This document shows, in pieces, positions 11,212-12,345 of a stretch of 64,000 nucleotides of DNA. The notes under the pieces are model-generated. The model saw nothing but the letters and a program-made list of their open reading frames with translations, made no database searches and was not told where the DNA came from. Position 1 is the stretch's first letter. Each line of letters opens with the position of its first letter. The position numbers and the translations under genes are program-made. This DNA is from Vulcanimicrobiota bacterium (GTDB lineage Bacteria > Vulcanimicrobiota > Vulcanimicrobiia > Vulcanimicrobiales > Vulcanimicrobiaceae): positions 124,001 through 188,000 of the forward strand of contig JAAXCW010000004.1 of NCBI GenBank assembly GCA_013036095.1, written 5' to 3'.

Positions 11212-11595
11212 ATGATGCTCCTGCGGGTCATTGTCTCGCTTTTATGCGCCGTGGGGTTTTACGCTTCCGTTTTCATGCTCCGGAAGAGCATTCGCGCCAA
11301 GCACGGCGAGGTCAAAGGGCCGAGCGTCGTCAAGTCGCCGCGTGCCAGACTCTTCGCCGGCCTGCCCAACGCGCTCTTCGGAATCATCTACTACGTCGCC
11401 GTCGTGGCGGTTACGTGGCTGGCCCACGCGCGGATCTTTTTCATCCTCACCGAGCTCGCGGCGTTGCTTGCGGCCGGTACCTCCGTCTATCTGGCATACA
11501 GCCTACTTTTTGTAACGAAGAAAATGTGCCCGTACTGTTGGACTGCGCATGCCGTCAACTGGTCGCTTGCTTTCGTTTTAGCGTGGCTTGTGTAG
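11212..11595 (+). CDS. Vitamin K epoxide reductase-like membrane protein
   Basis: This 127-residue protein has four hydrophobic helices and two VKOR-type signatures: PNALFGIIYY at residues 52-61 and the redox motif CPYCWTAHAVN with Cys106 and Cys109. Bacterial VKOR homologues reoxidise periplasmic thiol oxidoreductases and pass electrons to quinone. Here the loop between helices 1 and 2, which normally carries the shuttle cysteines, has none; the only other Cys is in helix 1. It therefore either acts without a shuttle pair or has a different role. The gene is divergent from the VTT gene, 42 bases apart. Confidence 0.8.
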   Translation: MMLLRVIVSLLCAVGFYASVFMLRKSIRAKHGEVKGPSVVKSPRARLFAGLPNALFGIIYYVAVVAVTWLAHARIFFILTELAALLAAGTSVYLAYSLLFVTKKMCPYCWTAHAVNWSLAFVLAWLV

Positions 11596-11616
11596 CGGAG
11601 CCGACATTGATATAAT
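11588..11616 (+). promoter_or_regulatory. Sigma70-type promoter reading into the 11.62-11.72 kb transcript
   Basis: A perfect TATAAT (11611-11616) is preceded, at 17 bases, by TTGTGT (11588-11593), which matches three of six -35 positions. It overlaps the end of the VKOR-like gene and points into a gene-free stretch that ends in an intrinsic terminator. Confidence 0.55.
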
Positions 11617-11621
11617 CCCCC

Positions 11622-11719
11622 TTGTCTCGAGAGTAATGCGGGATTCTGTACCGGAGTCCGGGAGCTGAGTCTACCGCCGGTGTAAATAAAAAAAGCCACG
11701 CGCAGCGTGGCTTTTTTTT
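11622..11719 (+). ncRNA. Candidate small RNA of about 100 nt
   Basis: There is no convincing gene between 11596 and 11733, yet this stretch has a consensus -10 box at 11611 and a strong terminator at 11691. The expected transcript is about 95-100 nt. It contains a possible stem closed by ACCGG (about 11650) and CCGGT (about 11677) with a small CCGG-AGT-CCGG hairpin inside, and an unstructured A-rich run before the terminator. It does not match SRP RNA, 6S, tmRNA or a riboswitch consensus that I know. A 10-codon reading frame (ATG 11634) is present, so a leader peptide is an alternative. Confidence 0.42.
11691..11719. terminator. Bidirectional intrinsic terminator
   Basis: An 11-bp stem (AAAAGCCACGC at 11691-11701 and GCGTGGCTTTT at 11705-11715) with a GCA loop is flanked by A-runs and T-runs. 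It can stop the plus-strand small transcript and the minus-strand secreted-protein gene that ends at 11734. Confidence 0.9.
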
Positions 11720-11733
11720 GTTGCTGTCAAGCC

Positions 11734-12345
11734 TTACAGCATGTACGCGGCTTTGAGATCGTGCATCGCCGTGGCAAGAATCGCGTGATAGTCGGCGTCT
11801 TTTGCGATCCCGTACTTCACATCGATGTCTTTCATGACTTGAAGATGGATCGGGTGCGAGACCGCGCGATCGAGCATGACTTCGACGCTCCATCCTCCCG
11901 GTATGACGCCCGCGTTCCAAAGGGCGGCGGCCAAAGCCTTACCGTTGCGCGGATCGGGCGACGGCTTGGAGGGAAGTTTCACTTTGGCAGCCGTGACGAT
12001 CTTGAGCGCATCGGCGACGACGAAATTAAAGACGGTGATAAAATTTCCGACCTTGGTTTTGCCATACTGTTTGGTGAGTTTGCCGACTTCGGCGTTGAAG
12101 TTTTTTCCGGCCAGCACTTTGAGCAGCGTCACCGTATCGAAATGCTGCGGGCCTCCGCCGGCTACGATCATCGAGAGCGTAACGGGGAGCGCCGGCGGAC
12201 CGGTGTAGACTCCGGGCCCCGAAAAGCGGGACGGTTCCATTTTGATCATCGAGTTCGCGGAGGCCATGCCCGAAGCGGCGGCCGCCGTAGGCGCCGCGAG
12301 CGCGCAAAGCGCAGCCGCAGCCATGATATGACGGATATTGAGCAC
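11734..12345 (-). CDS. Secreted protein of unknown function
   Basis: This 203-residue protein begins with a Sec signal peptide (MLNIRHIMAAAALCALAAP, probable cleavage near Ala-Ala-Ala-Ala-Ser at about residue 25). The mature part has no motif I recognise; it is mixed alpha/beta in character with no cysteine apart from one in the signal. The start is GTG 12345, preceded by a good ribosome site (AAAGGAG, 7 bases away). A bidirectional terminator lies just downstream. It is probably periplasmic or extracellular. Confidence 0.72.
   Translation of the reverse strand: MLNIRHIMAAAALCALAAPTAAAASGMASANSMIKMEPSRFSGPGVYTGPPALPVTLSMIVAGGGPQHFDTVTLLKVLAGKNFNAEVGKLTKQYGKTKVGNFITVFNFVVADALKIVTAAKVKLPSKPSPDPRNGKALAAALWNAGVIPGGWSVEVMLDRAVSHPIHLQVMKDIDVKYGIAKDADYHAILATAMHDLKAAYML

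Follow-up and report, generated by a model that had tools for sequence, protein, structure and literature searches.

In Salmonella and Vibrio cholerae, the small RNAs DapZ and MicX have promoters that lie in the end or the body of the upstream gene, as set out in the available text of a published account (PMC9438474). The locus analysed here resembles both, as they appear in that text, in that its promoter overlaps the end of the upstream gene and the RNA lies at the 3' end of that gene. It was found in the window, the whole stretch of 64,000 nucleotides of DNA that was analysed, which comes from a metagenome-assembled genome of an uncultured soil bacterium. Sequence comparison indicates that it is probably an independent gene for a non-coding small RNA whose family Rfam does not describe and which occurs in one family of Candidatus Eremiobacterota. 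The preliminary description had read it as a small-RNA gene of an unmatched family with its own promoter and terminator. Recurrence in 12 genera, conservation of the RNA body and the state of the locus in one relative, G092, support this reading.

The upstream gene (11212-11595, + strand) belongs to the VKOR family of vitamin K epoxide reductase homologues (PF07884, E 6.7e-17) and is present in 67 of the 99 family genomes. Facing it is a convergent gene (11734-12345, - strand) for a predicted secreted protein, for which searches of Pfam and NCBIfam returned zero matches. Together they bear out the placement of the RNA between a VKOR-like gene and a secreted-protein gene. Relatives of the convergent protein were found in 86 of the 99 family genomes; some of these genomes carry two or three copies.

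The predicted promoter occupies 11588-11616 on the + strand. Its -10 box, TATAAT at 11611-11616, is perfect and is preceded by TG at 11608-11609, giving an extended -10 of TG-A-TATAAT (11608-11616). The -35, TTGTGT at 11588-11593, is weak: it matches three of the six consensus bases, at a spacing of 17 nt. It overlaps the last VKOR codons and the stop codon TAG (11593-11595), and the -10 lies 16-21 nt 3' of that stop. The earlier claim of a perfect -10 with a partial -35 thus holds. A perfect -10 within the 33 bases at the RNA start has a probability of 0.004 in shuffled sequences, and TATAAT is unchanged in all seven genomes of the genus (g1). Among 41 loci cut out downstream of VKOR, which are related and therefore do not give independent counts, the -10 matches at least four of six bases in all 41 and at least five of six in 35. 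A TTG at a spacing of 17-18 nt is found in 39 of them and a TG before the -10 in 31. A simple consensus scanner listed neither the promoter, because it falls below the scanner's 9-of-12 rule, nor the terminator, probably because the T run was counted as stem. The case therefore cannot rest on consensus matching.

The predicted RNA runs from 11623 to 11719 on the + strand, about 97 nt, with its start placed from the -10. It ends in an intrinsic terminator (11688-11719, either strand), which consists of an A tract (11688-11694), the stem GCCACGC/GCGTGGC (11695-11701/11705-11711) and eight T (11712-11719). These elements and the predicted fold agree with the strong terminator first described. It is symmetric and appears positioned to end the convergent gene as well. 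Within the genus, the terminator sequence turns over while the body stays. G006 has another terminator sequence but an intact body, and a search of this genome for the convergent protein gave no match. A terminator kept alone for the convergent gene had been named at the outset as an outcome that would speak against an RNA gene; G006 presents the reverse. In four g33 genomes (L046, L048, L050, L073), an element of about 110 nt starting TTTTTCTTTTCG, with one base different in L073, directly follows the small-RNA terminator. It has an apparent matching inverted end and might represent a repeat or else a further RNA.

The body, taken from the end of the -10 to the end of hairpin P2, is the most conserved non-coding part of the locus in the genus. 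A DNA search recovered the locus in all six other genus genomes. Averaged over all pairs of the seven genomes, the body is 90% identical, the VKOR coding sequence 84%, its third codon positions 68% and the spacer between stop codon and promoter 60%. The 60 bases after P2 average 59% in the six genomes other than G006. No conserved open reading frame was found in the small RNA. The longest one with a stop in the window's transcript has 10 codons and its ATG is missing in the relatives, in line with the original view of the body as gene-free.

Known RNA families gave no assignment. None of 4227 Rfam 15 families reached its gathering threshold anywhere in the window. At a relaxed threshold, the best sub-threshold matches of the window's RNA include the terminator, for example Leu_leader at 25.1 bits against a cut-off of 50. 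The RNAs of 15 relatives likewise stayed below the gathering threshold. The initial failure to match a known family is thus borne out by Rfam 15. The plasmid collection searched also gave no match.

Similar loci are widespread in the family. We located 69 VKOR places in 67 of the 99 genomes and extracted 65, leaving out four partial ones (G078, G062, the second of G048, and G044). In 44 of the 65, which represent 12 genera, a promoter comes after the stop codon, and then hairpins and a terminator. A pattern cut out 41 of these; the remaining three (G046, G055 and the second copy of G024) were identified visually or with R1, a covariance model built on the g33 body. The other places comprise 18 without such an RNA, two doubtful ones (G011, G017) and one cut by a contig end (G075).

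The preliminary description had proposed a covariance-model search of related genomes. R1 gave one strong match per g33 genome, beside VKOR, and weaker matches in g10 and g13, but missed the window's RNA. Homology across genera is therefore argued from location, promoter, layout and loop motif, and is partly judged by eye. An RNA matched by R1 in G062 lies outside the counts given above. R1 found no match outside the family at E 0.01 in 117 genomes of the class. G042 has a weak match (E 0.004) on a contig other than that of its VKOR. When R1 was run on 18 places after a homologue of the convergent protein, mostly without VKOR there, G092 scored E 8.9e-5 and the other 17 at least 0.011. Among the 99 genomes searched, 13 contain the g1-like motif GNAGCTGAGNCTNCCGC, which is common to four genera; in 10 of them it is located next to VKOR. 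The remaining three occurrences look like chance on inspection, and a reversed control pattern scatters similarly. In two genera, L057 and L083 (G086, G011) have a common hairpin, GTGGAGGGCGG..CCGCAAGATCCACCTGGG, after VKOR, which resembles P1 of g19.

RNAalifold on the seven genus sequences predicts two hairpins in the body. P1 (11624-11644, +) has the consensus GUCUCG/CGGGAU, with GU, GC or AU as its first pair. P2 (11649-11682, +), also backed by pairing across genera, has an outside stem UACCGG/CCGGUG, inside pairs CGG/CCG and AG/CU, and the loop CUGAGU; its terminal motif AG-CUGAGU-CU is at 11663-11672. The internal stem of the preliminary description is present in the predicted fold of the window RNA with its terminator (z -1.84), but without the terminator bodies of the genus fold no better than shuffles (z +0.33 for the window's body, +1.18 and +0.95). 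For G076 and G100 the end pattern truncated the body, and their fold z-scores are unusable. The internal stem is supported by relatives and not by stability.

Outside this genus P1 is longer in most cases, whereas P2 retains the loop AGC..AG..CU while its outer stem is replaced; P2 of g19 differs. MAFFT across all genera misaligned the P2 registers, and P2 was therefore aligned by hand between genera, with g33 represented by a genome other than G052. In the register read by eye, which the alignment uses for g7, the outer stems of G052 and G012 each form five of five pairs. In 12 representatives all 60 pairs of the P2 outer stem form within their own arms, a count favoured because the arms were chosen by eye for pairing. 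Arms swapped between representatives form 3.0 of 5 pairs per stem, and none of 20000 permutations reaches the observed total. A less biased test, which compared the best stem around the loop with shuffled flanks, gave p < 0.05 in four of 11 genera (Fisher combined 7e-4). Compensatory changes had been suggested as a check. In a tool-made alignment of seven sequences from four genera, two P2 pairs are changed on both sides and six of 500 shuffles reach the covariation score, but covariation counts in the g33 alignment equal those of shuffles. RNAalifold on a mixed g33/g10/g13 alignment found P2 alone, because the length of P1 varies.

It is conceivable, though somewhat doubtful, that these loci derive from an ancient, family-wide two-hairpin RNA. 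From genus to genus its stems, and even the length of P1, would have changed freely, with retention of the promoter, the AGC..AG..CU loop and the chromosomal location. Function would then lie in the loop, through binding of either a dedicated protein or one shared set of mRNAs.

A mechanism can be proposed from these features. A housekeeping-type promoter, with its extended -10 and a -35 in the last VKOR codons, would give an RNA of about 97 nt, counted from the predicted start. This RNA, with two short hairpins in its body, would end at the intrinsic terminator that it shares with VKOR read-through and the convergent gene. The A-rich linker and U tail could bind Hfq, and exposed conserved bases, either at the 5' end, which is rich in U and C, or in the P2 loop CUGAGU, could pair with mRNAs. 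Action in trans, assisted by Hfq, is the most likely mechanism and is put forward tentatively, as plausible rather than probable. Hfq is encoded in G000 (PF17209, E 1.2e-27) and in 27 of 31 relatives searched; it was not found in G018, which has the RNA. Hfq-bound RNAs typically have an A-rich linker and a U-rich end. The genus RNA, G006 excepted, shows both features, with the linker in front of the terminator and an end rich in T. Duplex scores of the body were mixed for VKOR start regions and null for those of the convergent gene. A search for complementary 13-mers in the genus gave about as many matches in total as a reversed control. One of them, CTCCCGAGACAAG, is complementary at 12 of 13 positions to the 5' region of the small RNA; the site does not covary with the changed RNA of G003. 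It lies in an orthologous 3' untranslated region, before a terminator, in five of the seven genus genomes (L185, L176, L179, L180, L181).

The main rival to this mechanism also accepts an independent small-RNA gene, but has it act through protein binding at the conserved loop, for instance by CsrA or another regulator, and not through base pairing. The retention of one loop motif across genera while the stems change fits such a role. CsrA is encoded in G000 and in 25 of 31 genomes searched, and the genus body contains several GGA triplets. However, the usual CsrA site is a GGA in a hairpin loop, and the genus consensus fold has none there. By inspection the GGAs lie in stems or at a bulge, and repeated GGA in hairpin loops, as in RNAs that sequester CsrA, was not found. 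We consider protein binding unlikely as the mode of action.

Other alternatives concern the existence of the gene itself. The RNA might be no more than the end of the VKOR transcript: a structured 3' untranslated region with a terminator, in which TATAAT occurs by chance and which is perhaps processed into a 3'-end RNA. It directly follows VKOR in every extracted place that has it, and one terminator is common to both. Duplex scores between VKOR start regions and the body are weak, with p from 0.04 to 0.53 over seven genomes. A chance TATAAT is hard to reconcile with a -10 that matches at least four of six bases in all 41 loci, and the spacer between stop codon and promoter drifts (60% identity) whereas the RNA does not. 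Most telling is G092, of g47. There, an internal deletion that reaches as far as the small-RNA promoter has left an N-terminal remnant of VKOR (L144, G092:C32:57080-58080, by alignment to L055). Alignment of G092 with its relative G094 picks up again immediately ahead of the -35, with promoter, RNA and terminator all intact. This genome is the best single argument, as read from its sequence, that the RNA gene is a unit of its own, and an origin as a mere VKOR tail is improbable.

Still less probable is a regulatory element for the convergent gene, acting as an antisense RNA or as a terminator only. In its favour, the symmetric terminator is suitably positioned for either gene. The RNA, however, stops short of the convergent stop codon, with no overlap, and the duplex signal with the convergent start region is null. 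In addition, G006 keeps the body without a match to the convergent protein, and in g33 genomes such as G048, G050 and G059 relatives of that protein are encoded far from VKOR.

A divergent 6S RNA, which the locus resembles as a small non-coding RNA gene and which is undetected in six of the seven genus genomes, was rejected: three relatives (G018, G015, G011) carry a 6S candidate (RF00013) at a locus other than the VKOR place, RF00013 is not among the matches of the window RNA even at E up to 10, and the layout here is two short hairpins, not the one long hairpin with a central bubble of 6S RNA. A search of G000 for RF00013 gave no match. 6S was detected in 24 of 34 other relatives searched but in only one of the seven g1 genomes, at E 0.005; in this genus it is divergent or lost.

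An independent small-RNA gene thus remains the preferred reading; the RNA is new as a family, ordinary as a kind, and lineage-specific. Eremiobacterota is an almost wholly uncultured phylum, and to our knowledge almost nothing is known of its RNA regulation. No small RNA was reported for it in the titles and abstract openings covered by our literature search, made in a collection that includes few subscription journals. If the family-wide structured RNA is real, no small RNA of Eremiobacterota would have been described before it, as far as searches of this coverage show. With its place, promoter and loop motif defined, a conserved small-RNA gene of this kind would offer a concrete entry point to RNA regulation in this phylum, and metatranscriptomes of soil and peat would allow tests of it without culture.

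The comparison with DapZ and MicX can now be drawn more closely. The organism studied here encodes Hfq. The promoter of the RNA, whose -35 runs over the VKOR stop codon, is conserved at 41 loci, and an intrinsic terminator is present at the end of the predicted transcript. As with DapZ in the available text of PMC9438474, the promoter is conserved and adjoins the stop codon. The phylum is a different one, the upstream gene is VKOR and Rfam has no match. Unlike DapZ and MicX, the candidate is known from sequence alone; its independence from the upstream gene is read from G092, in which the RNA gene survives the loss of that gene.
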